Source: a virus. From it: a stretch of DNA of 29,178 bases. The stretch spans positions 1 through 29,178 of IMG/VR virus record IMGVR_UViG_3300018428_005699; one strand, written 5' to 3'. A program made the translations under genes and the position numbers. Position 1 is the first letter of the stretch. Every line of letters starts with the position of its first letter. The notes below the pieces were generated by a model, which saw only the letters and a list, made by a program, of their open reading frames with translations, searched no databases and was not told the origin of the DNA. Below, piece after piece: positions 5,775 to 24,348 of the stretch.

Positions 5775-5783
5775 TTAGGTCTC

Positions 5784-5972: not shown

Positions 5973-6292
5973 TATGGATTTCCTTCGCCGATGTGTACGT
6001 ATATCTTTCCAGTGAAACTAGAATCACCCACGGCTACGGTGATGTCGAAAGAGCCTCCACCGTTCGCACTAATCGATGAAATCCAAACATTCACATTTTC
6101 GTTGGCAGAAGCCACAGCGATTGGAGAATTATAGACCTCATTTGTCGTAAAAGTCAAAGGATCTGGAACGCTTAAATCGATTTCTCGAGATTCTCGAACA
6201 GCATTTGTATCTCTATAAAACCAATGCGGACTCTTACGTTGTAACGGATATATCTTTTTGAATCTATTTAGATCTAATCTGGTACGAGCCAT
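5972..6292 (-). CDS. Small structural-type protein (SSFxGKIY family, long copy)
   Basis: A 106-residue protein with a basic N-terminus (MARTRLDLNRFKKIYPLQRK, then SPHWFYRD) followed by a beta domain with ASANENVNVWISSIS and VAVGDSSFTGKIYVHIGEG. It begins 9 bases after phoH's stop behind AGGAG, and overlaps the next gene by one base. The C-terminal half is shared with the 62-residue neighbour. It may be a head-proximal or fibre-attachment component, by position only. Confidence 0.6.
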   Translation of the reverse strand: MARTRLDLNRFKKIYPLQRKSPHWFYRDTNAVRESREIDLSVPDPLTFTTNEVYNSPIAVASANENVNVWISSISANGGGSFDITVAVGDSSFTGKIYVHIGEGNP

Positions 6293-6301
6293 TCGAATCT
6301 C

Positions 6302-7639
6302 CTAGAGAATGTTCGATGCCACGCTAGCTAGGTCAGAACGTTGTCCTTTGGATAGGTTTACGTGTGCACAGAGAGGTGAGTTTTGGAACTTGTCAATAAC
6401 TATGCTTAAACCTGAACTTTGTCTGTCGATATATGGAGTATCGATTTGGTCGATATCACCTAGAAGAACAATCTTAGAGTTCGCACCCATACGAGTGATG
6501 ATTGTTTTGAGCTCATGTACAGTTGCGTTCTGAGCTTCATCAACAATAAGTATAGAATTATTGAACGTCCTTCCTCGGATATACGGAATTGGCGCAATTT
6601 CTATGTCACCTTTTTCGATCATCATCTGGAAATACGAAGTATCTTTGAATGCGTGGCGTACGTTATCAAGAATAGGCATCAACCAAGGTTGCATTTTTTC
6701 TTCCATTGAACCTGGGAGATAACCTAAGTCACGACCAACAGGCTGGAGTGTTCTTGAGATAACGAGTCTGTCGTATCCAATCTTCATATTTTCTGGCAAT
6801 GAAGCTCCTAACGTGCTTCCTCCGGGTGTGTTACCTGATTTCAAACCGTACAATCCGGCCATCAGAGCGAGGAATGTCTTACCGGAACCAGCAAGCCCGG
6901 TTAGACACACGAGTGGAATCGAAGGATCGAGGAGAGCCTCGATAGCGAACGATTGTTCCGCGTTTCTAGGTTCTACACAGATAAGACCTTCCATCTTTCG
7001 AATCATCTTCCTGATAAAGCCTTTCCGATTGATACCTAATAACGACTGATTCGACTGTGATTTACCAATAACAAATTGGTTTTCATTCAATCCAGATTCA
7101 GGTAGGAACAGCTTTCCTGTTTCGTAGAACTCGGCAAAGTGTTCGGGTTCTAATTCGATTTGTTTCCACCCGCACAAGTTATCTACATCTTCTTCAACTC
7201 GATCTTTCAGATAATCTTCTACGCCCAGACCGACTGCATCACACTTCACTCGAAGATTAATGTCTTTGGTGATTACGTATACGTTGTCTTTTTCTGAAGC
7301 TAAGTGCAATGCACAACCAATGATGATGTTATCGTTGTATCCAATGTCGAATCCTTCTGGCACACATTCGTGAATCTCGTTAGAAAGCTCGAATCTATAT
7401 CGCATGTCGAACTCTTCTTTTGTTCTCCAACCATATTCGTCGACTGGGATGGATCTCATTTCGTCCAAGAATCGATTGACATATCTTGCATTCTGTCCTA
7501 CGAGGCCTTGTCGTTCCTTAAACTTATCAAGCTCTTCTAGAACCACGAGAGGGAGGACTATATCGTTACCTTCGAAAGAGTGAATAGCTTGAGAATCATA
7601 AAGAAGTACGGAAGTATCGAGAATAAAAGTCTTTCGCAT
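6302..7639 (-). CDS. phoH: PhoH-family ATPase with N-terminal PIN domain
   Basis: A 445-residue protein of PhoH2/YlaK architecture. The N-terminal PIN ribonuclease-like domain (about 1-150) starts MRKTFILDTSVLLYDSQAIH and keeps acidic residues at D8, E35/E36, D103 and D126. The PhoH ATPase domain (about 220-445) has Walker A GLAGSGKT (248-255), Walker B ILIVDEAQN (D367, E368) and VLLGDIDQID (about 391-400). PIN-PhoH proteins couple an RNase fold to an RNA helicase-like ATPase; phoH is frequent in marine phages, where its role is unsettled. Here it heads the tail-gene run with no terminator between, so late co-expression is likely. A plus-strand gene diverges upstream. Confidence 0.93.
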   Translation of the reverse strand: MRKTFILDTSVLLYDSQAIHSFEGNDIVLPLVVLEELDKFKERQGLVGQNARYVNRFLDEMRSIPVDEYGWRTKEEFDMRYRFELSNEIHECVPEGFDIGYNDNIIIGCALHLASEKDNVYVITKDINLRVKCDAVGLGVEDYLKDRVEEDVDNLCGWKQIELEPEHFAEFYETGKLFLPESGLNENQFVIGKSQSNQSLLGINRKGFIRKMIRKMEGLICVEPRNAEQSFAIEALLDPSIPLVCLTGLAGSGKTFLALMAGLYGLKSGNTPGGSTLGASLPENMKIGYDRLVISRTLQPVGRDLGYLPGSMEEKMQPWLMPILDNVRHAFKDTSYFQMMIEKGDIEIAPIPYIRGRTFNNSILIVDEAQNATVHELKTIITRMGANSKIVLLGDIDQIDTPYIDRQSSGLSIVIDKFQNSPLCAHVNLSKGQRSDLASVASNIL

Positions 7640-7699: not shown

Positions 7700-7942
7700 A
7701 TGAATGATAAAGACGAAACTTGTTGGCAAGCCAACGAAAAGAACGAGACGCCTTGCCAAAACAAGGAGTGTCGACTTTGGCTTAAGTGTAAAGCCAAACA
7801 AAACTGTACGATCATAGCGGCGCAAGAAGGTCCTCTAACATTACAAGAGATAGGTAATTTACATGAATTAACTCGCATGCGCATCTGCCAAGTCGAAAAG
7901 GAAGCACTAAGAAAAATTAGAGAATCTGTCTTAGGTACGTAG
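7700..7942 (+). CDS. Small Cys-rich protein with a sigma-70 region 4-like helix-turn-helix
   Basis: An 80-residue protein, one of only three on the plus strand. Residues about 44-74 (PLTLQEIGNLHELTRMRICQ, then VEKEALRKIR) have the pattern of sigma-70 region 4: T-L-x-E-I-G, turn, T-x-x-R-I-x-Q-I-E, A-L-x-K-I-R. The first half is unlike sigma and holds cysteines at C8, C19, C24, C30 and C36, which could bind a metal or Fe-S cluster. GGAG lies 6 bases before the ATG and a near-consensus promoter lies upstream. It may bind -35 elements or host polymerase to redirect transcription. It is far too short for a full sigma factor, so adaptor or anti-sigma roles also fit. Confidence 0.75.
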   Translation: MNDKDETCWQANEKNETPCQNKECRLWLKCKAKQNCTIIAAQEGPLTLQEIGNLHELTRMRICQVEKEALRKIRESVLGT

Positions 7943-8015: not shown

Positions 8016-8219
8016 TTACTCTTTATCAGCTTTACGAGCCTTATCGCTTTCAACGGTGATTTTCACTAGTTCAGCTGCTTGATTCTTCAATAAACGAAGA
8101 CCTTTTCGTGCTCGAACACCGGCAGATACATTTCCAGCCGCGTTTTTGTGAACGTCCAGATCGATGGATTCGATAAGAGTTTTGATCTCTTGCCATTTTG
8201 ACGTGATGTCGTTACTCAT
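8016..8219 (-). CDS. Histone H1-like (Hc1-type) small basic protein
   Basis: A 67-residue helical basic protein: W-x-E-I-K-x-L-I-E-S-I-D-L-D-V at the start, then NAAGNVSAGVRARKGLRLLK (25-44) and a Lys-rich tail. This resembles the Hc1-type small histone-like proteins of bacteria and phages, in which the G-N-x-x-A-G-x-R-A-R-K-x-L-x-x-L-K segment is typical; they bind DNA and may compact or mark nucleoids. It lies last in the 10.8-8.0 kb operon, 2 bases after the previous gene and before a strong terminator. Identification is by pattern only. Confidence 0.6.
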   Translation of the reverse strand: MSNDITSKWQEIKTLIESIDLDVHKNAAGNVSAGVRARKGLRLLKNQAAELVKITVESDKARKADKE

Positions 8220-8221
8220 AA

Positions 8222-8455
8222 TTACTCTCCTGTAATGATGTTGGATTTAGTCCCTTCACGAGACTGGGTTATTGATTGCGTCAGTTCCTTCATAAGGCTG
8301 ACATTTTCTAGCTCCATCGCTAGAAGATAGATCATTTGCTCGAGTTGTTTTTGATTCACACCGTATTCAATCACGGTTTGAACGATTTCTCTCGCTTTGA
8401 TTTTATCTTGAATGTTTTGTTCTTCTGTAGATGTGCCAAATTGTTTCGTTGTCAT
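8222..8455 (-). CDS. Unrecognised small helical protein
   Basis: A 77-residue, probably all-helical protein (IQDKIKAREIVQTVIEYGVN, then QKQLEQMIYLLAMELEN). Charged and hydrophobic residues alternate as in a coiled-coil or helix-bundle dimer. It overlaps the upstream gene by ATGA (8452-8455), so translation is probably coupled. No family recognised; position next to the histone-like gene suggests a nucleic-acid accessory role, but nothing in the sequence proves it. Confidence 0.6.
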   Translation of the reverse strand: MTTKQFGTSTEEQNIQDKIKAREIVQTVIEYGVNQKQLEQMIYLLAMELENVSLMKELTQSITQSREGTKSNIITGE

Positions 8456-8913
8456 ACGATTCTCTTTTGTAAGAAAGGTTCCAGACGATAGTTGCCGGGC
8501 CCAATGAACTTAAGGATCTTACCACTAAGATCGCCACCTTCGGTTTCTTCACGGTGTATAATAATAAAGTCACCCCATTTTTCATTTTGTAAAATGTAAA
8601 GTGCGTGTTCCCAATCAGGTACCTCGCAATCATACGTCTCAAGCATCTGTTTTACTCCGCTTGGAAGCATCATTCCACAGTCTTTCTTCGTCATCACCGC
8701 TCCCACTTCTTGTCCCGGAAGGATTTCAGATTTACATACGTCTATAACGTTATGAATTACACCACAATTGTTACATCTCGCATGTTTTGGAATAGCTGTA
8801 TCGCTGTCATCGAACAAAGAAAACGCTACAAACGAATGATACTTGGGATTAGGATCCTTTCTGAACTGTGGTAAAACACAGTGGCACTCGATTAAATGTT
8901 TAAGTCCTTTCAT
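8452..8913 (-). CDS. Conserved phage-type protein with zinc-ribbon-like cysteines
   Basis: A 153-residue protein. The N-terminal half has MKGLKHLIECHCVLPQF (C10, C12), KHARCNNCGVIHNVIDVCKS (C47, C50, C60) and HSFVAFSLFDDSD, which looks like a small zinc-ribbon made from C-x-C, C-x2-C and a further Cys. The C-terminal half (WEHALYILQNEKWGDFIIIH) is a mixed alpha/beta segment. The pattern E-C-H-C-V-L-P-Q, then C-N-N-C-G-V-I-H, recalls a protein conserved in T4-like marine phages of unknown function; this is from memory and unchecked. GAGG precedes the ATG; 57 bases separate it from the RNase H-like gene. Confidence 0.65.
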   Translation of the reverse strand: MKGLKHLIECHCVLPQFRKDPNPKYHSFVAFSLFDDSDTAIPKHARCNNCGVIHNVIDVCKSEILPGQEVGAVMTKKDCGMMLPSGVKQMLETYDCEVPDWEHALYILQNEKWGDFIIIHREETEGGDLSGKILKFIGPGNYRLEPFLQKRIV

Positions 8914-8970: not shown

Positions 8971-9411
8971 CTATCTTGTATGATAATCTGCACATCCTGT
9001 TGCGCACCAAGCGCCTGGTTTATTCACATACTCAAAACCACAGCCAGTCACGTAGCCATGTGCAGACTTATTCAGAACAGAACTAGGAAATTTATCGTCA
9101 GAGTTTATATCACAATGTACTACGATATGAATGTTTGGTAGGCTCTCTCGTATCTTCCAAGCGATCGATAGCGACTTTTCAACTTCTGTCCATAACCTAT
9201 ATCGTATCTCTCGGGGCATGTTGGCAGAATGTTCCTTAGAGTACCAATATGTGACACACGGATTCTGGTATACTGCTATGGCTGTTGCAAATTTTGTGCC
9301 TCTGGAATAGTATTTTGAATCGCAACCTACGTGAACTGTGTCATATTTCTCAAGATACTCTATGATTTTATCGAATTCCCATTCGTCATTTTCACTTAGC
9401 CACCATTTCAT
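8971..9411 (-). CDS. YkuK-type RNase H-fold protein (DUF458 family)
   Basis: A 146-residue protein with the hallmarks of the YkuK/RNase H-like family: TVHVGCDSKYYSRGTKFATA (strand, catalytic-type Asp), EVEKSLSIAWKI (helix), IVVHCDINSD (second acidic strand), SAHGYVTGCGF and KPGAWCATGCADYHTR (the last acidic/His cluster). Family members keep the RNase H fold and its acidic residues; no activity is firmly established that I know of. I chose the ATG at 9411 (MKWWLSEND) over an upstream one at 9492 because GGAG and AAGG lie just before it and homology starts there. It overlaps the end of the chaperonin-like gene by 20 bases, suggesting coupling. Confidence 0.8.
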   Translation of the reverse strand: MKWWLSENDEWEFDKIIEYLEKYDTVHVGCDSKYYSRGTKFATAIAVYQNPCVTYWYSKEHSANMPREIRYRLWTEVEKSLSIAWKIRESLPNIHIVVHCDINSDDKFPSSVLNKSAHGYVTGCGFEYVNKPGAWCATGCADYHTR

Positions 9412-10621
9412 CCTTAACTCCAACAAGAAAACCACCAATATTAAGTATCTCTCGACGTAAGGATTGCGCAGTATCTTTTGCAGCGTCCACAAAACATCTA
9501 GGAAGAGGTCCTATAGGTGTTTCTACTTTTCCGGATGCTACGAAGCCGTTGTAATGTTTAAGAAGAGCATCGAGCTCTTCGAGAAGGTGTACGTTTTGTT
9601 TGTTCACCCAGATTTCTATTGCGTCATTTGATAACGATAGGATACGATCTTTATATAGAGTTTGTATCTCTTCTTCTTCAATTGTCTTTAATTTGTTTAT
9701 TAAATTACGAATGTGTCCATCTACGTTGGCTTCTTTATATAAAGATAAACCAAATTGTGTCCATTCTAATCTGTCGACAACGCCCCACTTATCTTCGTTC
9801 AAGACACTTGCGGAGATCAAATCACCAAAGTGTGCACTAATGAGTTCTCCTTCCGTGATTGCACACATGTCTGCAGCCAAGTTTATCGATTCAATCGAAT
9901 CTCCATAGGGTATCGGCAGAACATTCAATGCATTTCTTGTCCAATTAGTCGCTAGAGTCGCACTTATTTCCTCTGGAAAGCTTCTCGCTATGAGCAACAC
10001 AGGCCTTTTCGAATCATGATTCCACTGTAGAAGTGAATTAATTTCTCCTACTGTTTCGGGTGCTCCTTCGATCATGAGCACGATTGGATTTGATAACTCG
10101 ATATGTTCAACGTTCCCGATCATTCGATGAAACTGTGCGTCGAGTGATAACGGAAATCGAAAAGAGTTTCGATACTTGATAACTGTCTCGGATTCGTAAG
10201 AAGGCTTGAACATAATTTTTGTCAATGGGCCGACTACATCGTAGATGCTTCTGAATATATCTTTTGCTAGATCAGATCTAGATAACGAAAGAGTCGACTC
10301 TAGATAAGATTCTGAACTGGATCTCTCTGCGATCATATTTTCACAATCGATGTTGTGAAGAAACCACGGCACATACGAACCAGCACCAGGCTGCAGCCTA
10401 TCTGCAGAGAGCATAGAGTCTAATAACAGGTTTCTTAAAAGTAATTCGACACCATCGAAACTGTGGCCCAGTATCCACTTTTGCATCTGCAGATGAGAAG
10501 TCCTGTGAATATCGTTGATCACGAAGTGTTTTTCAGTGCAATACAAGTCTAATAATGACTTGGACCACCGAAACCACCCGTTGTGTCCGACTGTGTCGTA
10601 GAATTTAGTCTTTATTTGCAC
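9392..10621 (-). CDS. Divergent GroEL/Cpn60-like protein with a degenerate ATP site
   Basis: A 409-residue protein (GroEL about 548). Residues 178-275 follow the GroEL apical domain segment by segment: NPIVLMIEGAPET, KRPVLLIARSFPEEISATLA, TNWTRNALNVLPIPYGDSIE, DMCAITEGELIS, corresponding to [62 protein letters not shown]. Residues 301-355 match the return through the intermediate domain; D351 in LDALL lines up with the catalytic D398 region. At the N-terminus TVGHNG (10-15) sits where GroEL has TLGPKG, but the GDGTTT nucleotide loop has become SFDGVELLL (54-62) and KDGVSVA is lost. The C-terminal equatorial part is about 55 residues, not 130. It is probably non-cycling: a substrate holder or partner for host GroEL. 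GTG start with AGGA 7 bases before. Confidence 0.82.
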   Translation of the reverse strand: MQIKTKFYDTVGHNGWFRWSKSLLDLYCTEKHFVINDIHRTSHLQMQKWILGHSFDGVELLLRNLLLDSMLSADRLQPGAGSYVPWFLHNIDCENMIAERSSSESYLESTLSLSRSDLAKDIFRSIYDVVGPLTKIMFKPSYESETVIKYRNSFRFPLSLDAQFHRMIGNVEHIELSNPIVLMIEGAPETVGEINSLLQWNHDSKRPVLLIARSFPEEISATLATNWTRNALNVLPIPYGDSIESINLAADMCAITEGELISAHFGDLISASVLNEDKWGVVDRLEWTQFGLSLYKEANVDGHIRNLINKLKTIEEEEIQTLYKDRILSLSNDAIEIWVNKQNVHLLEELDALLKHYNGFVASGKVETPIGPLPRCFVDAAKDTAQSLRREILNIGGFLVGVKDEMVAK

Positions 10622-11806: not shown

Positions 11807-13729
11807 TTAAGAGTCACGCCATAGGTTATTCGATGCGTACGTTAGGACTTCTTCTGCAGAAGTTTCGTTATAGCCGTATTCGTCCATTAAAGTCTGAACC
11901 ATATCGCTGTATTTTTGCTTTTGCTCATCATCTCGGGTTTTGCTCTTAGTGACAATCCTCGCCATGTCCTTCACAGAGTTTATCAGATACGATTCGATCG
12001 CTTCCTTCAAGGGTTCATACGATTGGTAATCTACTTTAACGCCACGACGCATTTTTGCGAACATATACGCGGTGACATCTGAACGGAAACCTTGTCGAGA
12101 AGATCCCGTGATACCAATGAGTTCCTCGATGGACTTCATAAACCTTTCATCTGGTTCTCTTTCCTCTTTTGTAGTGCGACACTTAAGCTTTTGCTTCGTG
12201 GTGTACGCCTCTGCATTGTCAAGATAGGTGTCGAATAATGACTGAGCTTGTTCTTCGTACGCAGTGATGAAGGCTTTGGCGATTTCTGTTTCCAAAATCT
12301 TCAGATATTCTTCTCTCACAACGTTCTGTACGATTTCTAAACACCTTTCTCTAAAATCTTCATCTACGATTTGTTCTTTCACCATCTTTGTGAGTGATTT
12401 CATTACGCCGATAGGCGTGACACAATGGTTTTCACTCATGACCAACGCATGATCAATCGACTTCATAATGAATCGTGTAGAAATACCGTTCATGCCTTCT
12501 TCACGATGTTCTTCTCTTAGATCGTTGATGTCGATATTCTTGACTCTTCCCTTTTCAATCACTTCCTCACCGTTATAGATTTTCATCTTCGTAAGGAGAT
12601 CACACTTGCCTGACTTCTTCAATCGACTCATGATGGAGAACATCGATGCAACCTTAATAGTATGAGGTGCAATGTGAGCTTTGAAGTCTGATCTTTTAAG
12701 AATCTTTTCGTAGATCTTAATCTCTTCGTTTAATTCGAGACAGTATGGTACGTTGATCTTAACGACTCGGTCGAGGATCGCTTCGTTAGTATGCTCGGAC
12801 TTAAAACGATTCCACTCAGATTCGTTGCAGTGAGCAAGAATAACACCGTCGAAGAAAACCATATCGTGCTTACCAGGCGCCGGTACACGCTTTTCCTGTG
12901 TCGCAGTAATAATCGTATGTAGGAACTCAATCTCATTTTTGAAAACCTCGATGAGTTCGACGATTCCTCTGTTTCCTACATTGAATGCACCTGTAAGATT
13001 GAGTACTCGTGGGTCATCTTCTGAAAACTTATCCAGCTTAGATATGTCTTCAGATCCGATCAATACGGAAACATCTTGCGAATTTGCATCCATTGGAGGT
13101 ACAGAGGCGATCCCTCTACGACCTCGTTGCGAGAACGTGGAAGTCTTAACCTTAAAGTTTTCATATTTACCATCGTAATCTTCGAGGAGCCGGTGTCGAG
13201 CTACGGGACTAAGATCACCTTCGATCTTGACTCCCAACATGTCTTCGAACTGAGGTCGCAGGGATCGGGGGAGCAACTGAAGTGGTTCCCCTCTCTGTGG
13301 ATCACCATCGAGGTGGTAGTAGACTTCACCATCGAGTGCATCCTTGATGTGTTCGGTCAGTGCGGACTTTCCGGCACCTACTGGACCCATCAATAACAGA
13401 ACTTGTCTAGATTCTTCTCCTCGCAGTGACGCACTCTTAAGGAAGTGCATCAATTTTTCGATGACTCGTTCGTTACCAAAGAACTGTGATTTAAAGTAAT
13501 CGTAGATCTTAATGTTGTCATCGTTAAAGATCTTCTTCTTTCGAGGATCTTCGTTATCCATCGTAGCTACACCATGCTGCTTGATTGCATCATACAATCT
13601 TTTGTGCGCAGGCTTTGCGATGTCAGAATCTTGTTGTAATTTTTCTAGGTACTCAAGGAAGGTTCCTTCGAACTTTTCTTCCTTTTTCTCCGATCTTTGT
13701 TTGTTGATTAAATCGAGAAATTTACTCAT
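11807..13729 (-). CDS. prkA: PrkA/YeaG-family AAA+ serine protein kinase-like protein
   Basis: A 640-residue, full-length PrkA (E. coli YeaG about 644). The AAA+ part starts near residue 75 (YDYFKSQFFGNERVIEKL); Walker A is GPVGAGKS (115-122), followed by the PrkA-specific HLDGDPQRGEPLQLLPRSLR. Further family marks are GNRGIVELIEVFKNEIEFLH, the Q-E-K-R-V-P segment, HCNESEWNRFKSEHTNEAIL and DRVVKINVPYCL. The C-terminal PrkA domain follows from about residue 400 (GISTRFIMKSIDHAL). It is known as a Ser/Thr kinase, or AAA protease in some accounts, acting in starvation responses and sporulation. Here it is last of yhbH-spoVR-prkA, 15 bases after spoVR, behind AAGGAG. All key residues seem intact, so it is probably functional. 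Confidence 0.95.
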   Translation of the reverse strand: MSKFLDLINKQRSEKKEEKFEGTFLEYLEKLQQDSDIAKPAHKRLYDAIKQHGVATMDNEDPRKKKIFNDDNIKIYDYFKSQFFGNERVIEKLMHFLKSASLRGEESRQVLLLMGPVGAGKSALTEHIKDALDGEVYYHLDGDPQRGEPLQLLPRSLRPQFEDMLGVKIEGDLSPVARHRLLEDYDGKYENFKVKTSTFSQRGRRGIASVPPMDANSQDVSVLIGSEDISKLDKFSEDDPRVLNLTGAFNVGNRGIVELIEVFKNEIEFLHTIITATQEKRVPAPGKHDMVFFDGVILAHCNESEWNRFKSEHTNEAILDRVVKINVPYCLELNEEIKIYEKILKRSDFKAHIAPHTIKVASMFSIMSRLKKSGKCDLLTKMKIYNGEEVIEKGRVKNIDINDLREEHREEGMNGISTRFIMKSIDHALVMSENHCVTPIGVMKSLTKMVKEQIVDEDFRERCLEIVQNVVREEYLKILETEIAKAFITAYEEQAQSLFDTYLDNAEAYTTKQKLKCRTTKEEREPDERFMKSIEELIGITGSSRQGFRSDVTAYMFAKMRRGVKVDYQSYEPLKEAIESYLINSVKDMARIVTKSKTRDDEQKQKYSDMVQTLMDEYGYNETSAEEVLTYASNNLWRDS

Positions 13730-13744
13730 TAACGGCTCCTTAAC

Positions 13745-15046
13745 TTAAATCTCGTATGGTGCGTCGTCCACCATTGTTATTAATTTTACCTCACTTCCCC
13801 AAAGGTGTGAAATGTGAGAGACGACTTTTTCAGCATATTGTATTTCGAGGTCACGTCCATCGTGTTCGTGATGTAACACTAATATATATCCATCTTCGAT
13901 AGAATCTGCGTAAATAGTTGGAATAGAATTACCGGCAGTCTGTCGTAGCAGGACATTTTTTACGTTCTCCCATCCTTCTTCGTCGCTTACATCATCGACT
14001 TCGTAGTGATCTTTTTTCGCACTAAACGAAAATAGATTAAGCTCTTCGCAATCCTCTCGTGTCAGGTACTGTCTAATGAATGATTCATCATTGTGTACCT
14101 CTCTTGCGATGAAGCATTCCTCGAGACCATAACGTTCTTCGATCTTGTTGAACAGATGAAATCCTAAGTGGTACGGATTGATACGTCCTACGTGAGGTCT
14201 GACTACTTGATTATGAGACTTCAAGAATGGAAGATGTAAACCTTGCGGCAAATCAAGTTCATGAAGAATCTTATAGTGCCAAAAACACGCCCATCCTTCG
14301 TTCATAGTCTTGGTTCTGATCTGAGGCATGAAGTAATATGCTTCGTCTCTGACGATTTGCATCACATCTTTTTCCCAATCTTCCTTATGCTCACCATAAG
14401 CAGCGCAGAACCCGATCAGATCGTATTCAGGCCGATATGGCAGATCTCTTGCATCGACTTTATTCTTTCCGACTTTGTCGATATTTGCTAAACGGTATTG
14501 CTCATATTCTTCTGGAAGATTTGGAATGTCCATTGGATACCTAGGAACTTGATATGAAATCGCGTGACACGCATCAATTAGCGCTTCCACTTTTTCAATA
14601 CCAATATGTGGATCTTCACAATACGATTGTATACGTTTCTTTGCGTTTCTCATGCGCGGTACAACTGTATCGGCGCGGGTATACCCGAAGTTTCTATTCA
14701 TCTTGAAGAAATCGCTATGACCAACGCAGTGTGCCATGATAAGAATTTGCAAGTACAGCGGATTTTCCAACATCAAATAAGAGATACAAGGATCAGAGTT
14801 AATGATCAACTCGTAAGGTAGCCCGGTCATCCCGTGTTGGTATTGTGAGTGTTGCTGCTCAAAGGATTTACCATACGACCAGTGGCCATAATGTGTAGGC
14901 ATTCCGTGGTATGACATGTTACCTAACATCTCAAAGTAGTCACATGTTTCGTATGTGATAGGATACCAATCGAGGCCGTGTTTCTTTGCTATCTCACAGA
15001 TTCGATCATCCCAGTCTTGTAGGTCTTGTAAGTTCCAATCACTCAT
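13745..15046 (-). CDS. spoVR: SpoVR/YcgB-family protein
   Basis: A 433-residue protein (bacterial members about 470-510). It opens WNLQDLQDWDDRICEIAKKH, followed by GLDWYPITYETCDYFEMLGN and THYGHWSYGKSFEQQ, then YELIINSDPCISYLMLENPL and AHCVGHSDFFKMNRNF, all typical of SpoVR. NEGWACFWHYKILHELDLPQ and GRINPYHLGFHLFNKIEERY hold further conserved His/Glu residues. The function is not settled; it is needed for spore cortex in Bacillus and widely co-occurs with PrkA and YhbH. It lies between them with 2- and 15-base spacings, AGGAG before ATG. The shortfall in length is mainly at the C-terminus, which ends in short beta segments. Confidence 0.95.
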   Translation of the reverse strand: MSDWNLQDLQDWDDRICEIAKKHGLDWYPITYETCDYFEMLGNMSYHGMPTHYGHWSYGKSFEQQHSQYQHGMTGLPYELIINSDPCISYLMLENPLYLQILIMAHCVGHSDFFKMNRNFGYTRADTVVPRMRNAKKRIQSYCEDPHIGIEKVEALIDACHAISYQVPRYPMDIPNLPEEYEQYRLANIDKVGKNKVDARDLPYRPEYDLIGFCAAYGEHKEDWEKDVMQIVRDEAYYFMPQIRTKTMNEGWACFWHYKILHELDLPQGLHLPFLKSHNQVVRPHVGRINPYHLGFHLFNKIEERYGLEECFIAREVHNDESFIRQYLTREDCEELNLFSFSAKKDHYEVDDVSDEEGWENVKNVLLRQTAGNSIPTIYADSIEDGYILVLHHEHDGRDLEIQYAEKVVSHISHLWGSEVKLITMVDDAPYEI

Positions 15047-15048
15047 TA

Positions 15049-16221
15049 TTAACTCCTGAAAAATTCTCTAAATACTTTCCACACGTCATCTTTACGATAG
15101 ATACGACCAATCTTAAACTTTTCATCTTCGTATGGTTCGTATGCTTCGGACAGTGTTGTTCCGTTACCCCATCTGATGCGTTCATCTTCGGGTGTGATCT
15201 CACAATAACCGTAGAACTGACACATCTGTTTAAGAGTTTCGTTAGAAGCGATGGTTCTATCCATATCTTCTCCCCAGTTATCCCCGTCTGAACAGTGGAA
15301 AGCATAAAGATTCCAAGAGCTAGGGTTGTATCGCTTGTTTGCTTGTTCGATAACATAGTCGATACAAGGTGAAACCATCGTACCACCACCTGTACCACGA
15401 CCGAAGAACTTATCTTCGTCTACTTCGTACGGCTGAGTATCATGTGCAACGAATACAATTTCTGTCTTCTCGTATTTGCTTCGAATAAAATGATACAAGA
15501 GGAAGAAAAAAGATCGTGCTAAATATTTCTTATCGGTAGTCATCGAACCGGATACGTCCATCATAAAGAAAATACAAGCATTGGTTGCAGCCTTTTGTGT
15601 CACAGTGATATGCTTGTAACGTAAATCTTGCTCAATAAAAGGAAATACTTCATCTCCTGTATCTGGATCTACCTTTATATCGCCTTGTTTCCGAGCTGCC
15701 ATCTTGCGTTTAATGCGTTGTTTAGCTGATTCTTTCTTAGAAAGTCTTGGTCTGATGCCATCAGAACGATACCCTTTGCGTTTGAACTTCTCAGACAAGA
15801 TCTCTTTCATCTGTTTCTGTTCCATATCGGGTAATTCGAGGTCTTTGAAAAGGTAGTAAGCTAACTCTTCGAGTGTCACCTCGACATCATAGTACTCCTC
15901 ACCGGGTTTGTTACCTGCTTTGTCGGGTTTACCCTTACCTTGCTTTTGTTTCTGGCCAATCTTCTGGCCTCTCTGAACGTCAGCATCGCCACCAGAGCCT
16001 GTTTGTTGTTGATTATTAGATCCATATACGAACTTATATTCCTTTATTCCTCTGACAGGAATACGAATCTTCTTCTTGCCGTCTTGACCAATGATGGATT
16101 CTTCAGCGACTATATCGTGAATACCCTCTCGAATAGCTTTTTCTATCTTTTCTTTATGTCGACCACGATCCTTTGCGCTTCTATCTGCGTTTGTTCTGTG
16201 GTGTGAAAATACAGATCCCAT
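15049..16221 (-). CDS. yhbH: YhbH/YeaH-family (UPF0229, DUF444) VWA-like protein
   Basis: A 390-residue protein (E. coli YeaH about 427). The N-terminus (HHRTNADRSAKDRGRHKEKI, then REGIHDIVAEESI) is typical; residues 68-106 are a low-complexity Gly/Gln/Lys stretch; EVTLEELAYYLFKDLELPD follows. The C-terminal half is a VWA-like domain with DVSGSM (222-227), GGGT (278-281) and CSDGDN (about 312-317) for a MIDAS-type metal site. It is the first gene of the yhbH-spoVR-prkA set. The 53-base gap upstream holds a 6-bp inverted repeat (GTGACA/TGTCAC, 16238-16262) but no clear promoter, so it may be read from upstream genes. Confidence 0.95.
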   Translation of the reverse strand: MGSVFSHHRTNADRSAKDRGRHKEKIEKAIREGIHDIVAEESIIGQDGKKKIRIPVRGIKEYKFVYGSNNQQQTGSGGDADVQRGQKIGQKQKQGKGKPDKAGNKPGEEYYDVEVTLEELAYYLFKDLELPDMEQKQMKEILSEKFKRKGYRSDGIRPRLSKKESAKQRIKRKMAARKQGDIKVDPDTGDEVFPFIEQDLRYKHITVTQKAATNACIFFMMDVSGSMTTDKKYLARSFFFLLYHFIRSKYEKTEIVFVAHDTQPYEVDEDKFFGRGTGGGTMVSPCIDYVIEQANKRYNPSSWNLYAFHCSDGDNWGEDMDRTIASNETLKQMCQFYGYCEITPEDERIRWGNGTTLSEAYEPYEDEKFKIGRIYRKDDVWKVFREFFRS

Positions 16222-16274
16222 GTTGTGCTCCTCTTTAGTGACATTTTACTCGAGTGTGTCACGATGTATACGAA

Positions 16275-16679
16275 TTAGAAATGGTTAAATGCCCAATGAA
16301 CAAAAGGTCTAAGGTATGGATACATCAATTTCAACGCTTGTTGTTCCGTTAACCAATCGAATCCATCGTGTTCATACTTGCCTGTGATGGGATTCTTCTC
16401 AATGATCACAGGTGTGTCTTTTGGAATCTCAGCCATCCACATCGATAGATACGAAGTTTTGTAAGGTCCTTCGATAATTTCTGAGGGATGAATAACAATT
16501 CCCGTCTCTTCTTGCGTTTCTCTTAATGCGCATGCAAAAGACGATTCACCCGGGTCTTCTGTTCCTTTTGGTAAATCGTATGTTGCGCCTTGCTTTCGCC
16601 TTGTTGCGATGTCACCGACAAGCCCAAGTATTTTTGGTACGTCATTATCGTATGTCATTAAAATTATTCCTGCTCCCAT
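16275..16679 (-). CDS. Nudix hydrolase
   Basis: A 134-residue protein with a complete Nudix box near residues 36-58 (KGTEDPGESSFACALRETQE, then ETGI): G-x5-E-x7-R-E-x-x-E-E-x-G-I. It hydrolyses some nucleoside diphosphate linked to another group; the small C-terminal domain and LPKGTED suit the diadenosine polyphosphate/(di)nucleotide type, but the substrate cannot be assigned. I chose the ATG at 16679 because GGAGG ends 6 bases before it; the alternative ATG at 16691 would itself overlap this ribosome-binding site. It starts 1 base after the HEAIH gene's stop. Possible roles are nucleotide sanitation, alarmone breakdown or RNA decapping. Confidence 0.9.
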   Translation of the reverse strand: MGAGIILMTYDNDVPKILGLVGDIATRRKQGATYDLPKGTEDPGESSFACALRETQEETGIVIHPSEIIEGPYKTSYLSMWMAEIPKDTPVIIEKNPITGKYEHDGFDWLTEQQALKLMYPYLRPFVHWAFNHF

Positions 16680-16680
16680 T

Positions 16681-17043
16681 TTACCCTCCATCGTTCTTCA
16701 GCCAATTGAATCGTTTTCTCGTATCTAAATAATCTAGATTCTTATCGTTATCATACGCTTCTTTTTCGAAAGGTATCATGTAATACGCTGTTTGGCCATC
16801 TCGGTACCGAATATAATTCCAAAGATAAAACATGTAGTACAACGGGATGAATCCAATCACGCCACAATCGATGTATTGTTGCCAATGAATTGCTTCATGG
16901 TTCTTGGTCTCTGCAGACATTTCGCCTCTTGAAAAAACAAAAGGGCCAATAGTGATCGCACCAATATCGATTGGTGCGAAATAAGAAAGGATAACTGGTA
17001 TCTTGCTATTTTCAAAAAACCAAGGCCTTGAATCTTTAAACAC
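16681..17043 (-). CDS. HEAIH-motif putative metalloprotease, membrane-associated
   Basis: A 120-residue protein. TKNHEAIHWQQYI (about 47-59) has the H-E-x-x-H zinc motif, and PFEKEAYDND (about 92-101) supplies a Glu of the kind used as third ligand in minimal gluzincin-like peptidases. Between them VIGFIPLYYMFYLWNYI is hydrophobic enough for a membrane segment. A similar arrangement is frequent in marine-phage and Bacteroidetes small proteins. GTG start behind GGAG at 7-base spacing. It leads directly into the Nudix gene. Possible jobs are host-envelope or lysis-related processing, but no substrate is evident. Confidence 0.65.
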   Translation of the reverse strand: MFKDSRPWFFENSKIPVILSYFAPIDIGAITIGPFVFSRGEMSAETKNHEAIHWQQYIDCGVIGFIPLYYMFYLWNYIRYRDGQTAYYMIPFEKEAYDNDKNLDYLDTRKRFNWLKNDGG

Positions 17044-17079
17044 AGTAGCTCTCCAAAGAAGGGGGACACTACTAATTAT

Positions 17080-17427
17080 CTAGCTTCTCTTATAATCGTC
17101 TGCTAATCGTACAACATCGTCTAATTCAGGAGATGAGCACTCTATGAGTACAACATCTTCTGTTTCGTCAGCACCGAATCTATGAACTTGCTTGGGGGAA
17201 CAATGGAATGTGTCTCCTTTCTTAAGTACTATATAATCGTTATCATCGTCACTTTGCCAATTAAGGAGCATGCCAGATAGAACATATATGGTTTCCTCTT
17301 TTTGTTGGTGATACTGTAAACTTAATCTGTGACCCGCTCTGATCGTAATTTTTTTCATAGCGTATTTAGGTGTAAGAGAAAGTAGTTCCTCGTGACCCCA
17401 AGGCTTCTTCGTTATCTTTGGCTTCAT
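17080..17427 (-). CDS. Mannose-6-phosphate isomerase type II-like cupin
   Basis: A 115-residue single-domain cupin: KPWGHEELLSLTPKYAMKKI, then RAGHRLSLQYHQQKEETIYV, LSGMLL, LKKGDTFHCSPKQVHRFGA. This equals the C-terminal cupin of GDP-mannose pyrophosphorylase/phosphomannose isomerase enzymes; H-x-x-Q-K-E-E with the later H suits a metal site. It would act on fructose- or mannose-6-phosphate or a related sugar. I chose the ATG at 17427 (MKPKITKKPWGHEE) because GGAGG lies 6 bases before it, though the frame is open further up. It overlaps the nucleotidyltransferase by 62 bases. It is a natural partner for the phosphomannomutase at 25.5 kb. Confidence 0.85.
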   Translation of the reverse strand: MKPKITKKPWGHEELLSLTPKYAMKKITIRAGHRLSLQYHQQKEETIYVLSGMLLNWQSDDDNDYIVLKKGDTFHCSPKQVHRFGADETEDVVLIECSSPELDDVVRLADDYKRS

Positions 17428-17992
17428 TGTATCCCTCCGCCCAACCTTGGAGCTCAACCGCTTCCAAGTTAAATCTATCTGCGTTTTCGACCAAGTCGCT
17501 GCTTGACCTAATTTTTCCTCCGCCAACTCCCGTGATGACTTCGCAACCCACTTGCTGACAGATCTCCCATTCAGGAATGTTCGTAGCATCCGTTCTATCT
17601 CCACCTTTAGTAAACCATTTTGGTCTAATTGTATTGATAGCTTTTACGACAGTAAAGTCATCATTCGTATAGAACCAAGGTAGAACGACATCTACACCTT
17701 TGATACTATGAACAATTTCCATCCGGTCTTCCAAAGACATAAAGTTATATCCTTTCTTTGCTTTCAAGAAATCATCACAGTTTACAAGTATTGTGACCAA
17801 AGGTCTACGACATGATGGGAACTTCTTGGGATTATTCGCCATCTTTACTGTTTCCTGAATACATCGTAGGTGACCCACATGAAGAGGATCGAATCCGCCC
17901 GATGTCAGCATGATGTCTTGCGAGTATTCAATTACGTCACGACATAGCTCTCGCCATTCTAGGAACTCATTAATATTCTTAAAAATTGCCAT
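17366..17992 (-). CDS. Cytidylyltransferase-like nucleotidyltransferase (RfaE2/TagD type)
   Basis: A 208-residue protein. LTSGGFDPLHVGHLRCIQET contains the H-x-G-H motif (H38, H41) of the nucleotidyltransferase superfamily; PLVTILVNCDDFLKAKKGYN, SLEDRMEIVHSI and FTKGGDRTDATNIPEWEICQ are the ADP-heptose synthase/glycerol-3-phosphate cytidylyltransferase pattern, with GGGKIRSSSDLVE as the I-x-S-S end. It activates a sugar phosphate or alcohol phosphate with CTP or ATP. The last 20 residues overlap the cupin gene. AGGAG precedes the ATG and it follows the methylase by 2 bases. Confidence 0.85.
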   Translation of the reverse strand: MAIFKNINEFLEWRELCRDVIEYSQDIMLTSGGFDPLHVGHLRCIQETVKMANNPKKFPSCRRPLVTILVNCDDFLKAKKGYNFMSLEDRMEIVHSIKGVDVVLPWFYTNDDFTVVKAINTIRPKWFTKGGDRTDATNIPEWEICQQVGCEVITGVGGGKIRSSSDLVENADRFNLEAVELQGWAEGYNEAKDNEEALGSRGTTFSYT

Positions 17993-17994
17993 CG

Positions 17995-19107
17995 TTATCT
18001 CCTCGCGAGTATCGCATATTCTGTCAGTGGTTCTTTTTCATTATCTCTATCGATGCAATGGCCTTTGGTACGACCAGCTTTCGTATGAGAATTTTTAGTG
18101 TGTAATTTTTTATACGTCACAATCGATGATCTGTTAAATCCACCTGCGGAAATAACATCCTCAAGTTCTCCTAGAGTGAGTAATCCCTTGTTAGAATAAG
18201 AAAACATAAGATATGGTGATTGTACCATCGATAGGATTCGTTCAAACGAAGGTATCACAATGGATTTATCGTTATATTCGAGATCTCCACAGTATCCTTC
18301 TAGTTCAACTCTTCGTTTTGCTCTACCTGATACCTCAGGCTTGTCGTTTCTTACGAGATTATTCCACAGATGGTAGAAAGAATCGTATCTACATCCTCCT
18401 GTACGTGACACTTTCTTATTATTTGTACCGTAAGGAGGGTCTATATAGGTTATGTCAGTTTCCACTTTGTCGATAATGTCGTACATATCTTTACAGTGAA
18501 CCACATGGCTGTGTTTATGTGACGTTTCTATCGGAGGTAATTCGAGGTGCAGTTTTCTTAACTTACCTTTCTTCCAATCTTTAAAGTATCCTGTTTGGTG
18601 ACCCATCCAATTTGAAATCTTTGACACGGCTAATATAAGCGAAAGAAGGAGAACTGACTTCTCCACGTGATCATTTGGATATATGTCATCTATCTTGTAC
18701 CGAATTATATCGATCTTTCTTGCGTTGTAGTCGACCCAGGGCTTGGGATTGCCATCAGATCCGATAGAACACCCGTCGTTGAACGGTGCACCGTATGTGT
18801 TCGCATACCAGCCGTCTGTCGACCCCCAGAAAGAATCGGGCATTGCGTTTAGTCTGTCAATTAAATACTGAAAATACTGTAAGTTTTTTGTATTCTGTAA
18901 ATAAGATTCTAGAATCACCTTTGTGTACGATTGTCTATCGTTAGCGACGATCTTGTACTTGTTTCTAAAGTGATGTGACACTCTGCCAGAACCAGCGAAT
19001 GCATCGAAAAAAGAATTGAGTTCGGTTCCATCGAGGTAATCTTCTAAAGAGTCTTTTAGAAACGGAAGAAGCTTACGCTTGGAACCCATATATGGAATAG
19101 TTTTCAT
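17995..19107 (-). CDS. D12-class DNA N6-adenine methyltransferase
   Basis: A 370-residue protein starting MKTIPYMGSKRKLLPFLKDS, the usual opening of D12/Dam-type enzymes. FDAFAGSGRVSHHF (FAGSG 37-41) binds S-adenosylmethionine, and YIDPPYGTNN (D223-Y226) is the catalytic DPPY. The insertion between them, about 180 residues including TDGWYANTYGAPFNDGCSIG, suits the longer HpaII/FokI-like members. It overlaps the helicase by ATGA. No restriction enzyme lies nearby, so it probably protects phage DNA from host nucleases or marks it; the recognition site cannot be read. Confidence 0.92.
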   Translation of the reverse strand: MKTIPYMGSKRKLLPFLKDSLEDYLDGTELNSFFDAFAGSGRVSHHFRNKYKIVANDRQSYTKVILESYLQNTKNLQYFQYLIDRLNAMPDSFWGSTDGWYANTYGAPFNDGCSIGSDGNPKPWVDYNARKIDIIRYKIDDIYPNDHVEKSVLLLSLILAVSKISNWMGHQTGYFKDWKKGKLRKLHLELPPIETSHKHSHVVHCKDMYDIIDKVETDITYIDPPYGTNNKKVSRTGGCRYDSFYHLWNNLVRNDKPEVSGRAKRRVELEGYCGDLEYNDKSIVIPSFERILSMVQSPYLMFSYSNKGLLTLGELEDVISAGGFNRSSIVTYKKLHTKNSHTKAGRTKGHCIDRDNEKEPLTEYAILARR

Positions 19108-20702
19108 TTAAGTGTCTCCTTGAATCCTTTTGGAAACACATCTTTATTCTTGTCCCAGAATCGTTCCCAATCGGCATCTAGGATATATGTGACAGCTGTA
19201 TCGGTATCACTACGTACAGATCTACCAACGGACTGTACGATCACCTTCGCTGTTTGGAGAGGATACCACCACTTCCATTTATTCATCCGTTTCTTTACGA
19301 GCTTGTCGCCTAGGTATGGATATGGCACTTTACAGATAATCTGGAACCGACTGAGATCTCCTTTCAGGTCGACACCTTCTTGCATTGATGGCGATAGAAG
19401 CACCGTAGGACGAGGATCTGCCATGTGTATCTTCAATTTCTTTTCTCTATCTGCAGATGTATGCGTTAGTAGACGTTTAGATCGAACATTTCTTTTGAGA
19501 TACTGTGCGATTTTATACGAGTGACAATGGATAATGCCTTTCTCGTTCGGATGAGCGTCGAGGATTGCCTTTACAGCTTGTGCCATCTTGGGTAAACCCG
19601 CATCTATATTCTTGAATGACATAGACGCGATAGGAGATACGATGATTGGTCGGTTCTCTACGGGGAATGGTGATGGTATCGATATGAATGCGACCTGCTC
19701 GATTGGTAATCCTAGTACTTCACAAAAGGCCTCTTTATTCATGACCGTTGCTGACATAAGGAGAACCTTCTTTGCACTACGAAAGAGATAAGGTTCTGAA
19801 TATGGACCAACACAAATTGGTTTAAACTCGTACTTCTTCGTATTCTTTACGTCTGTTTCAGTAATGTTCAGGATCCAATTGTCTTTATGGTACGTCTTGA
19901 TGAACCTTGAAAGTTTGCAAAGATGTTTATCGATGAGCTCGTATTGGCTAGACACCTTTAAGAACTCCTTCATCTTCTTTTGAAGTGACAACTTTTCGAT
20001 CATCTTCTCGTAGTGATATTTGATTGTCTCAAGTTTTGGCTTGTAAATGTCTACGACCCAACGAAACACTTGGTACTGTGTCTTCAATTGTGGGATTTTA
20101 AGCTTTAGAACCTGATTTGCGAAGTGTTCAGAGATAACGATCTCTACGAAATTACCTAATTCAAGCTCTGTATTGTGGCATTCGTCTACCACCATCATCG
20201 TGCGAGGTTCCAATTGTTGCGAATAATGCGTCTCGGCCAAGAAATATGAGAAATTAGTGACGCCATGTTCGCCATCCATAAAGTCTTGTTTCGCTTTGCG
20301 GTATCTACAACCCGTACCACCACAGCATTGTTTAAACTTCTGATCCTGTGACACTTTCATTTCACGTCTGGCCATCGCACAAGTCTTAGTTTTATAGTAC
20401 TTGCATTGGAAGTTCGTGGAGGATTGAAGATTAAACATGCCTTTCTTTTGGAAATCACGCATGTACTGTTGCTGTAGGACCTTTTGTGTCGTAAGATAGT
20501 AAGTACCAGAACCCTTTACGTGTTGGTTATAGTACTGCGCAATCGTAAAACCAATCGCACTCTTGCCGACACCGGTTCCTGCCTCGATCACTACGAATCT
20601 TTTGTCATCATTGATAAATGCATCAAGTGCGAAATTAATCGCGAGGTCCTGCTCTGGACGTGTTGTGGGATACGGAAAAAATTGTTTCCAGTTGTGTGTC
20701 AT
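19104..20702 (-). CDS. Rad3/DinG-type superfamily 2 helicase with Fe-S-type cysteines
   Basis: A 532-residue protein. Motif I is EAGTGVGKS (40-48), motif II VVDECH (171-176); later SATVMN, IIHCHSYKIAQYL, SPSMQEGVDLKG and QSVGRSVRSDTD are motifs III-VI. Four cysteines (C100, C108, C126 or C127, C132) lie between motifs I and II where XPD/DinG proteins bind a 4Fe-4S cluster. It should unwind DNA 5' to 3' from single-stranded tails in replication or repair. The gene has its own promoter inside a leader hairpin (20712-20746), and is coupled to the methylase. Not confidently DinG itself, which is longer. Confidence 0.9.
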   Translation of the reverse strand: MTHNWKQFFPYPTTRPEQDLAINFALDAFINDDKRFVVIEAGTGVGKSAIGFTIAQYYNQHVKGSGTYYLTTQKVLQQQYMRDFQKKGMFNLQSSTNFQCKYYKTKTCAMARREMKVSQDQKFKQCCGGTGCRYRKAKQDFMDGEHGVTNFSYFLAETHYSQQLEPRTMMVVDECHNTELELGNFVEIVISEHFANQVLKLKIPQLKTQYQVFRWVVDIYKPKLETIKYHYEKMIEKLSLQKKMKEFLKVSSQYELIDKHLCKLSRFIKTYHKDNWILNITETDVKNTKKYEFKPICVGPYSEPYLFRSAKKVLLMSATVMNKEAFCEVLGLPIEQVAFISIPSPFPVENRPIIVSPIASMSFKNIDAGLPKMAQAVKAILDAHPNEKGIIHCHSYKIAQYLKRNVRSKRLLTHTSADREKKLKIHMADPRPTVLLSPSMQEGVDLKGDLSRFQIICKVPYPYLGDKLVKKRMNKWKWWYPLQTAKVIVQSVGRSVRSDTDTAVTYILDADWERFWDKNKDVFPKGFKETLK

Positions 20703-20711
20703 ACGAAAACT

Positions 20712-20746
20712 CCTGTGTATAGTTCGGTTATTGTATTATACACAGG
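20712..20746 (-). promoter_or_regulatory. Leader hairpin sequestering the helicase Shine-Dalgarno
   Basis: CCTGTGTATA (20712-20721) and TATACACAGG (20737-20746) form a perfect 10-bp inverted repeat with a 15-base loop. In minus-strand RNA the downstream arm ends in ACAGG, the first part of the AGGAG ribosome-binding site, 9 bases before the ATG. Read-through RNA would mask it; RNA begun at the promoter 20735-20763, starting near 20728, lacks the upstream arm. Confidence 0.65.
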
Positions 20747-20763
20747 TATGACAGATTTTACAA
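20735..20763 (-). promoter_or_regulatory. Promoter TTGTAA-17-TATAAT for the helicase-methylase operon
   Basis: On the minus strand TTGTAA (20763-20758, also the stop codon of the gene upstream) and TATAAT (20740-20735) are 17 bases apart. The -10 box overlaps the upstream arm of the leader hairpin. It is among the best promoter matches in the window. Confidence 0.75.
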
Positions 20764-21321
20764 CTCTCCAAGCAACATTCCGTAGAATAAGTCTTCACCT
20801 CTACGACCGACGTATTTATCGATAAATTCAGGGATAGTATGTTGTTCCATGTGTTCCGAATACCCAAAAGGATCCGGATCAGAAAGTCCGAACGTAACGT
20901 AGAATCCTTCGACATCATTCTGTAACCAGTTGGAGTATCGTTTACATTGAGACCACATTTCTACCATTCCTTCGAACTGTGCGAACGTCATCTCGCTCCA
21001 ATCTTTTGCCGCAAACCAGAATTCGTTTGCGTTGGAAACTTTTATCCATCCGTCAGGCATCGGCCACGGCCTAGCACTGTCATCCTGATTATACACTCTG
21101 TCCCAAAGCCAATCCGTATGATCGCAGCCTTCGGTGTCGCGGTAATTCCCTTTATCGTCAATGAAACCGAGAGAGTGACTATTGCATTGAAAATCGCTAG
21201 CCTCTAAAATTATCCTCCGAACAGATTCTCTAATCAGTTCTTCTTCTTCGACTGCAACGTCCATCTGACCTATTTCTTCTGCAGAAGAAGCAAACGGATT
21301 ATCGTATCCTCTAGTATCCAC
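20758..21321 (-). CDS. Unrecognised phage protein with an internal LIRESVRRIILE motif
   Basis: About 187 residues from a GTG at 21321, chosen because GGAG lies 7 bases before it; a TTG at 21348 in the same frame is weaker. After an acidic start (VAVEEEELIRESVRRIILEA) comes a Trp- and Asp-rich body: GCDHTDWLWDRVYNQDDSAR, EFWFAAKDWSEMTFAQFEGM, EMWSQCKRYSNWLQND. The RRIILE segment resembles the N-terminal tag of 11166-11732. It looks soluble and acidic. Its end contains the -35 box of the helicase promoter. No function proposed. Confidence 0.6.
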   Translation of the reverse strand: MDTRGYDNPFASSAEEIGQMDVAVEEEELIRESVRRIILEASDFQCNSHSLGFIDDKGNYRDTEGCDHTDWLWDRVYNQDDSARPWPMPDGWIKVSNANEFWFAAKDWSEMTFAQFEGMVEMWSQCKRYSNWLQNDVEGFYVTFGLSDPDPFGYSEHMEQHTIPEFIDKYVGRRGEDLFYGMLLGEL

Positions 21322-21691
21322 TTTCTGTCTCCAATTCCCACGGTCCAAACGTACCTGTTTCGGACATCCATTCCATCACTTCTTCTCTCGTGTATTCATA
21401 TATCTTTGGAGTTCTCGATACACGACCCATAGTGTCATCCCAGTATTCACTCTGATCGATTTTACCAAGGAGATAATAGATTGCACGTGGCATCTTTATA
21501 TCGCGGCCATTTGATCGATCATGAACTGTATCGGTGGCTTTGTGAATGAGAAAGCAATGCCCGTATGGTACGCCGGCAAGTTGACCCTGGCCCATGACTT
21601 CTGCATGCACGAGGATATATTCGTCTGCTTCGCTAAAATTATTCAGCATGAATCTTCCGTGAACCTCGTAACAATCGCCTAATCTACTCAT
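21311..21691 (-). CDS. Small protein with a possible Cys-His-Asp (papain/NlpC-like) arrangement
   Basis: A 126-residue protein. MSRLGDCYEVHGRFML puts C7 at the start of a helix; ILVHAEVMGQG and GVPYGHCFLIHKATDTVHDR bring H45 on a strand followed by D54/D58; IYYLLGKIDQSEYWD and YTREEVMEWMSETGTFGPWE complete it. Cys at a helix start followed by G-H on a strand and then D is the layout of papain-fold enzymes (NlpC/P60, transglutaminase-like). Similar proteins are common in marine phages, unassigned as far as I know. It starts in the end of the upstream gene and overlaps the next by 11 bases. Activity is speculative. Confidence 0.6.
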   Translation of the reverse strand: MSRLGDCYEVHGRFMLNNFSEADEYILVHAEVMGQGQLAGVPYGHCFLIHKATDTVHDRSNGRDIKMPRAIYYLLGKIDQSEYWDDTMGRVSRTPKIYEYTREEVMEWMSETGTFGPWELETESGY

Positions 21692-21920
21692 CTTCTTCCC
21701 ATGGTATTTTTTCTACGTAGTACGATGGTGTCACTACGATTTGGTCACCAATAAGTATGTGATAAATCCAGTCTTGATATGTCGATGGTGCCCAATAACA
21801 GAAATTCTTTATGTCTACAACGATGCCGATCGAGTAGCGATAGCCCGAACCTCTTTCGCGACACCAGCACAGCTCACCGACCCTGGCGGTTTTCTCCCAG
21901 AACGCAGCGCTATTTCGCAT
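21684..21920 (-). CDS. Small beta-barrel-type protein (VGELCW copy)
   Basis: Up to 78 residues; the ATG at 21920 overlaps the aldolase by 106 bases and has no good ribosome-binding site, so the start is uncertain. TARVGELCWCRERGSGYRYS, IGIVVDIKN, IYHILIGDQIVVTPSYYVEK, I follows the pattern h-G-D/E-L-h, G-I-V-h-x, Y-x-h-L-h-x-D-x-h of the small barrel-like family in this region. Function unknown; SH3-like folds often bind proteins, RNA or DNA. Confidence 0.5.
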   Translation of the reverse strand: MRNSAAFWEKTARVGELCWCRERGSGYRYSIGIVVDIKNFCYWAPSTYQDWIYHILIGDQIVVTPSYYVEKIPWEEDE

Positions 21921-23981: not shown

Positions 23982-24024
23982 ACCTTCTCCCGGTTCAGGA
24001 GTTAATTATATCCGATAAATAAAA

Positions 24025-24048
24025 TGGGCGTACGAAATTGTACGCCCA
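24025..24048 (-). terminator. Rho-independent terminator
   Basis: TGGGCGTAC (24025-24033) pairs with GTACGCCCA (24040-24048), a 6-base loop between, followed on the minus strand by TTTTATTTAT. It ends the transcript of the 24074-25766 genes. A second small hairpin (GAGATAA/TTATCTC, 24053-24075) covers that gene's stop. The 92-base gap holds no other feature. Confidence 0.85.
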
Positions 24049-24073
24049 CAACGAGATAATCACTAGTCTTATC

Positions 24074-24340: not shown

Positions 24341-24348
24341 TACGTCTC

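Follow-up and report, generated by a model that had tools for sequence, protein, structure and literature searches.

A complete bacterial three-gene module in viral DNA

We asked whether a phage can carry, as an intact and maintained unit, the PrkA, YhbH and SpoVR proteins that are common in bacteria and whose joint biochemistry is poorly understood, and what such a unit would do there. The window, i.e. the whole stretch of DNA that was analyzed, is a 29,178-bp IMG/VR virus record, the minus strand of which carries full-length YhbH (DUF444), SpoVR and PrkA as a tight operon at positions 11807–16221, with intergenic gaps of 2 nt (yhbH/spoVR) and 15 nt (spoVR/prkA). The three genes are as follows.

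15049..16221, minus strand: yhbH (DUF444), VWA/MIDAS protein of 390 aa, operon gene 1; Pfam PF04285, 4e-109
13745..15046, minus strand: spoVR, 433 aa, operon gene 2; Pfam PF04293, 2e-120, and SpoVR_C (PF24755), about 3e-8 to 4e-8
11807..13729, minus strand: prkA, AAA+ ATPase with PrkA C-terminal domain, 640 aa, operon gene 3; Pfam PF08298, 8e-138, and PF06798, 3e-80

All three proteins covered their Pfam profiles almost end to end, with PF08298 (AAA_PrkA) at residues 23–376 and PF06798 at residues 379–631 of PrkA, and PF04293 at 1–403/407 for SpoVR. A reading made earlier from the sequence alone had described the trio as complete, adjacent and intact in its motifs, which agreed well with our results, as the coordinates were exact and the motifs GPVGAGKS (PrkA), DVSGSM (YhbH) and HxxxH with NEGWA (SpoVR) were all present and also conserved in relatives. 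The NCBIfam equivalog cut-offs were missed by all three proteins (PRK15455, 392/576; PRK11767, 284/679; TIGR02877, 391/468 bits), and by these sequence scores the window proteins are to be regarded as family members, not as the named NCBIfam orthologues. The best PHROGs families for the trio carry the label "unknown function", so that viral annotation pipelines can overlook the module.

Co-inheritance of the trio in marine T4-like phages

Relatives were collected using a SpoVR protein scan of IMG/VR, giving 14, together with profile scans from which 80 of 233 confirmed PrkA candidates and 80 of 264 confirmed SpoVR candidates were taken. Merging of repeats left 103 distinct contigs, viral and mis-binned, recovered with either PrkA or SpoVR, three of which were filed as bacterial MAGs. 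The order yhbH-spoVR-prkA on one strand was complete in 99 of these 103 contigs, with the remaining four being truncated by the contig end, and the spacing between yhbH and spoVR, mostly −8 to +13 nt, suggests translational coupling of these two genes. The trio had previously been proposed to act as a self-contained unit, a claim that only this co-inheritance supports.

Of the 16 trio-bearing records tested with lengths of ≥130 kb, 15, reaching up to 293 kb, encoded a T4-type capsid protein (gp23), and the 361-kb record gave no match; the window itself, too short to show one at 29,178 bp, had no capsid gene. The nearest gp23 relatives were capsid proteins of Microcystis phage Mel-JY01, Flavobacterium phages and Rhodothermus RM378. 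One MAG contig (G014:C5) carried both gp23 and the trio, and is thus a phage filed as a bacterium. In a large group of marine T4-like phages the trio is conserved and uninterrupted, and in the literature searched, with its partial coverage, we found no description of it in such phages. With regards to membership in a defence system, a weak match of the ATPase to DolB was found and nothing else.

Three loci filed under bacterial MAGs bore the phage trio (L166, L167 and L168; NHDW01000006.1, PBNF01000027.1 and PBIO01000025.1), and one of these contigs, of 305,838 bp, also has gp23 and so is a phage. The three bins gave conflicting indications of a host (Methylococcaceae, Legionellales and Halobacteriovorax), at least one of the contigs being itself a phage. 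As separate observations, gp23 was seemingly tandem-duplicated in G020 and G026, and a TAA stop was seen within the gp23 match of G022 (G022:C1:150918-151724).

Selection on the trio and conservation of key residues

Comparing near pairs of sequences, we found median dN/dS values of 0.036 for PrkA (30 pairs), 0.042 for SpoVR (16 pairs) and 0.067 for YhbH (10 pairs), with few pairs and high dS in these estimates; the trio is under strong purifying selection. The Walker A residues K121 and S122 together with R321 of PrkA were conserved at ≥95% among the cellular and the marine phage sequences, and every Thermus or huge phage tested had them too. Likewise, the MIDAS residues D222-S224-S226, T281 and D312 of YhbH were conserved in both the phage and cellular sets, and E79, H106xxxH110 and E250 of SpoVR were invariant in the cellular and marine phage sets, the residues of both proteins being kept also in the divergent Thermus phages. 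In one relative (L066:3255-5816) a 410-residue LAGLIDADG intein, with Pfam intein and LAGLIDADG matches, splits SpoVR directly after NEGWA, a placement that fits an important SpoVR site.

These results bear on whether the locus could be contaminating bacterial DNA, or a passive, non-functional piece recently derived from a host. The lack of a capsid gene in the window and the three relatives filed as bacterial MAGs could be taken to speak for this, but T4-type gp23 and the trio share one contig in the carriers, including the MAG contig, the frames are intact and under purifying selection, and identity to any sampled cell copy was ≤57%. On the grounds of gp23 linkage, selection and intact frames we rejected contamination or a decaying fragment as scarcely credible. 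The sequence-only reading had considered the DNA to be that of a phage and had named two findings that would speak against its interpretation, a bacterial origin of the DNA and a recent host fragment with inactivating changes; neither was found.

One genomic site, with and without the trio

The trio resides in a widely kept gene order, namely DinG helicase, nucleotidyltransferase, Nudix, trio, GroEL-like gene, a small gene (8452-8913), Hc1, sigma region-4 (opposite strand) and PhoH. The main flanking genes of the window are the following.

19104..20702, minus strand: DinG-like helicase (PHROG 2488, 1e-117), upstream neighbour in 50 loci and used as phage-backbone tree marker
16275..16691, minus strand: Nudix gene (Pfam NUDIX, 3e-11), the upstream border of the cassette, present also in trio-less sister phages
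9392..10621, minus strand: GroEL-like fragment gene, 409 aa (PHROG 5725, 7e-11; NCBIfam GroEL, 9e-7), conserved downstream in 57 related loci
6302..7639, minus strand: PhoH2-like gene (PIN and PhoH; Pfam/NCBIfam), on the same strand in 68 related loci

The GroEL-like fragment gene matches GroEL weakly at positions ~210–350, and in the trio-less sisters a similarly sized gene occupies a similar place. Other genes seen here were those for a stand-alone sigma-70 region 4 protein of 80 aa on the opposite strand (7700-7942, plus; conserved in 69 related loci), a histone H1-like Hc1 protein (8016-8219, minus; adjoining PhoH in 74 loci), an RNase H-like protein (PF04308; 8971-9492, minus), being another family common to cellular genomes, and a sugar-nucleotide-like set (16681-26334, minus) of a mannose-6-phosphate isomerase-type cupin, an RfaE-type nucleotidyltransferase, a class II aldolase and a phosphomannomutase-like HAD protein.

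A sister group of phages (L312, L315, L316, L318, L319, L320, L321 and L324) had largely the same neighbouring genes but no trio between them, and PrkA was not found elsewhere in their records, several of which are fragments. In a DinG tree, the presence or absence of the trio could be explained by two changes, one of them being L309, which indicates that the trio was gained or lost at the level of a clade and at a single site. With the flanks thus present in sister phages having no trio there, the trio is a clade-defining cassette, not recent host debris.

Origin of the phage genes

Cellular copies were sampled from three bacterial phyla (Pseudomonadota, Bdellovibrionota and Bacillota), and a closer cellular source may therefore exist. 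A scan of genome contigs with strict exact-peptide patterns returned four loci. The earlier reading had proposed phylogeny of each gene as a check, and for all three genes the marine phage copies were monophyletic. In the PrkA tree the marine phage copies formed one clade (SH-aLRT 99) grouped with a divergent Bacillota subfamily (99), which is chromosomal, lies among metabolic genes and has the order prkA-yhbH-spoVR. Identities of the window proteins to this subfamily were 53–57% for PrkA, 42–47% for SpoVR and 42–45% for YhbH, with 30–39% for PrkA against other cellular PrkA, giving a maximum of 57% against any sampled cell copy. The SpoVR and YhbH trees also gave one phage clade each (99 and 96), without firmly resolving whether the same Bacillota group is its sister (supports 66 and 24), and capture of all three genes from a single source is thereby not proven. 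Two Bacillota, G017 (L188/L189) and G066 (L252), encoded PrkA of both the common lineage and the divergent lineage closest to the phages.

In the PrkA tree the branches of the Thermus phages (100) and of two types of huge phage lay apart from the marine clade. The module thus appears to have entered at least four lineages of phages, with exact placements uncertain given the long branches. The yeaG-yeaH pair of Enterobacter phage LAU1 was considered as another independent capture and set aside, as it lies at the end of its record, is Pseudomonadota-like and is possibly host DNA.

The yhbH-first order had been noted as differing from the usual prkA-first order. This holds for most bacteria, with prkA-yhbH-spoVR in the sampled Pseudomonadota, Bdellovibrionota and most Bacillota, but yhbH-spoVR-prkA was also found in two Bacillota (L260 and L261) and in the Thermus phages examined, so that prkA-first is a common arrangement and not a strict criterion.

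Comparison with known systems

The bacterial prkA-yhbH-spoVR operon, as known from E. coli (yeaG-yeaH and ycgB) and the R. etli prkA operon, has the same families at full length, adjacent and with active motifs kept, whereas the trio of the window is phage-borne and permuted in order to yhbH-spoVR-prkA. Among phages, the cultured Thermus phages YS40, phiLo, MN1 and Lalka8 have the complete trio in the same order as the window, although the Thermus phages (YS40, TMA, phiLo, MN1 and Lalka8) share only 21–34% identity with it, form a separate PrkA branch and have D at the position of K423. All three genes are also present in huge uncultured phages of ~600 kb (LR756502, LR745206, LR756504 and LR756511), in which, unlike in the window, the order is prkA-yhbH-spoVR or spoVR is distant (LR756502), and which branch with Pseudomonadota or Bdellovibrionota. 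The Ralstonia jumbo phage RsoM2USA, which was not among the matches of our searches, encodes SpoVR (ORF28) and PrkA (ORF30), with an intervening unnamed ORF29 (PMC8504454), and in viromes of the ETNP oxygen minimum zone spoVR was reported to exceed all other viral "sporulation" genes in abundance (PMC8940887). The novelty implied by the sequence-only reading is lessened by these reports and by the Thermus phages.

What the trio may do

A kinase function, with phage PrkA phosphorylating host proteins and redirecting metabolism and with YhbH and SpoVR being accessory, draws on E. coli YeaG, of which the kinase-domain mutant K426A was tested for its effect on viability under nitrogen starvation (PMC4664914), and on the equivalent lysine (K423 in the window), which is retained by the phage, by the divergent Bacillota and by most Pseudomonadota. 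However, the main Bacillota have N or D there, Bdellovibrionota and Thermus phages have D, and purified PrkA of B. anthracis had no detectable kinase activity and had negligible protease activity (PMC13001217). Kinase activity of PrkA is accordingly disputed (PMC13001217), though the phosphoproteomics proposed in the earlier reading presumes it, and we find kinase signalling quite unlikely. The negligible protease activity also speaks against a dedicated ATP-dependent protease, in which Lon-like PrkA, or SpoVR, would cleave host or phage regulators. The PrkA ATPase domain does match Lon (2e-5) and SpoVR retains an HxxxH...E pattern, but the latter reads HCVGH, not HExxH, and thereby lacks the zincin catalytic Glu, with no match to a zincin fold in the PDB; we regard proteolysis as unlikely, while giving it some weight. 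SpoVR as a hidden zincin was rejected on these grounds despite a good AlphaFold2 model (mostly helical, pLDDT 84.6, pTM 0.85), as its profile also showed no similarity to the DUF2201 metallopeptidase using hhalign. The model found no recognizable fold relative in the PDB, which leaves the enzymology of SpoVR a guess.

Remodelling of phage structural proteins, i.e. a role in virion assembly or late in infection, could be argued from Lalka8, where the trio lies between portal/minor head genes and TerL, and from YS40, where it is near the terminase gene; in the marine clade, however, it is found among Nudix, GroEL-like, Hc1, PhoH and sigma-like genes. The signals upstream of yhbH were also considered.

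16222..16271, minus strand: yhbH leader, with ribosome-binding-like AGAGGAG and a weak −10-like TAAAAT

Across 97 loci, the −10-like TATAAT was enriched upstream of yhbH (37 of 97, as compared to 15.1, at most 24, in shuffles), which suggests from sequence that the trio has its own promoter, with no indication of timing, whereas the T4 late-promoter element TATAAATA was not enriched at these loci. As TATAAATA was missing at gp23 of these phages too, its lack of enrichment upstream of yhbH is uninformative on timing. Considering the neighbourhood, we find a virion role distinctly improbable.

MoxR AAA+ proteins pair with MIDAS-type VWA proteins, often beside a third client gene. The PrkA trio is similarly composed of an AAA+ ATPase, a MIDAS-type VWA protein and a third gene, although PrkA is outside of the MoxR family and SpoVR is no known MoxR client. 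The PrkA family was covered at 3e-117 by PDB entry 9xip, named a serine protein kinase, with Lon next. These PDB matches, the disputed kinase activity and the variability at the K426-equivalent position favour an AAA+/VWA machine having SpoVR as third component, and the trio is on balance probably such a remodelling machine. PrkA would form the AAA+ ring, with YhbH serving as VWA/MIDAS adaptor in the manner of MoxR-VWA pairs; SpoVR would be an effector or client, probably metal-binding in view of its conserved E79, HxxxH and E250. Together, the three would remodel or quality-control proteins. Speaking against this, B. anthracis PrkA was monomeric (PMC13001217).

As to the target, the bacterial genes are induced by stress and starvation and work jointly: yeaG and yeaH are functionally linked in nitrogen-starved E. 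coli (PMC4664914), no gene of R. etli is induced more strongly by ppGpp than prkA, which heads the three-gene operon there (PMC3188799), and mutants in yeaH and in ycgB have a peptide-sensitivity phenotype in common (PMC2375023). By supplying its own copy during infection, the phage would override stress or growth-arrest control in nutrient-limited host cells. This starved-host role is extrapolated from bacterial biology, and action on host stress physiology is a tentative proposal, somewhat short of even odds. Our best explanation for the locus as a whole, with a probability of roughly one half, would be that a bacterial PrkA-YhbH-SpoVR stress module was captured by an ancestor of the marine T4-like phages and kept as an operon at one site, as a remodelling machine tuning the physiology of the stressed host.

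A DUF2201 protein (HExxH metallopeptidase-like with VWA) was also seen in the window (27718-29118) and in a relative (L291:3404-4510 and the 5240-6658 region), with DUF2201_N in 13 of 15 records searched. In that relative a MoxR-type AAA_5 gene lies immediately upstream of the DUF2201 gene, and these phages thus carry a second AAA+/VWA pair, which counts in favour of our explanation of the trio. We consider it rather unlikely that the trio and this pair, MoxR-type AAA+ with DUF2201 metallopeptidase-VWA, are parallel machines of one remodelling programme keeping dormant or starved marine cells productive, recruited separately for that purpose by at least four phage lineages.

Implications

That at least four lineages of phages seem to have taken up all three genes separately, and that the set is fixed in a widespread marine clade, suggests that the three proteins act together and that their product matters in infection, which the cultured Thermus phages having the same operon make testable. 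Viral spoVR in these phages is part of a stress/AAA+ operon and not a sign of viruses steering sporulation. With the trio being intact here and conserved across marine T4-like phages, a poorly understood bacterial machine becomes open to study as a phage tool.
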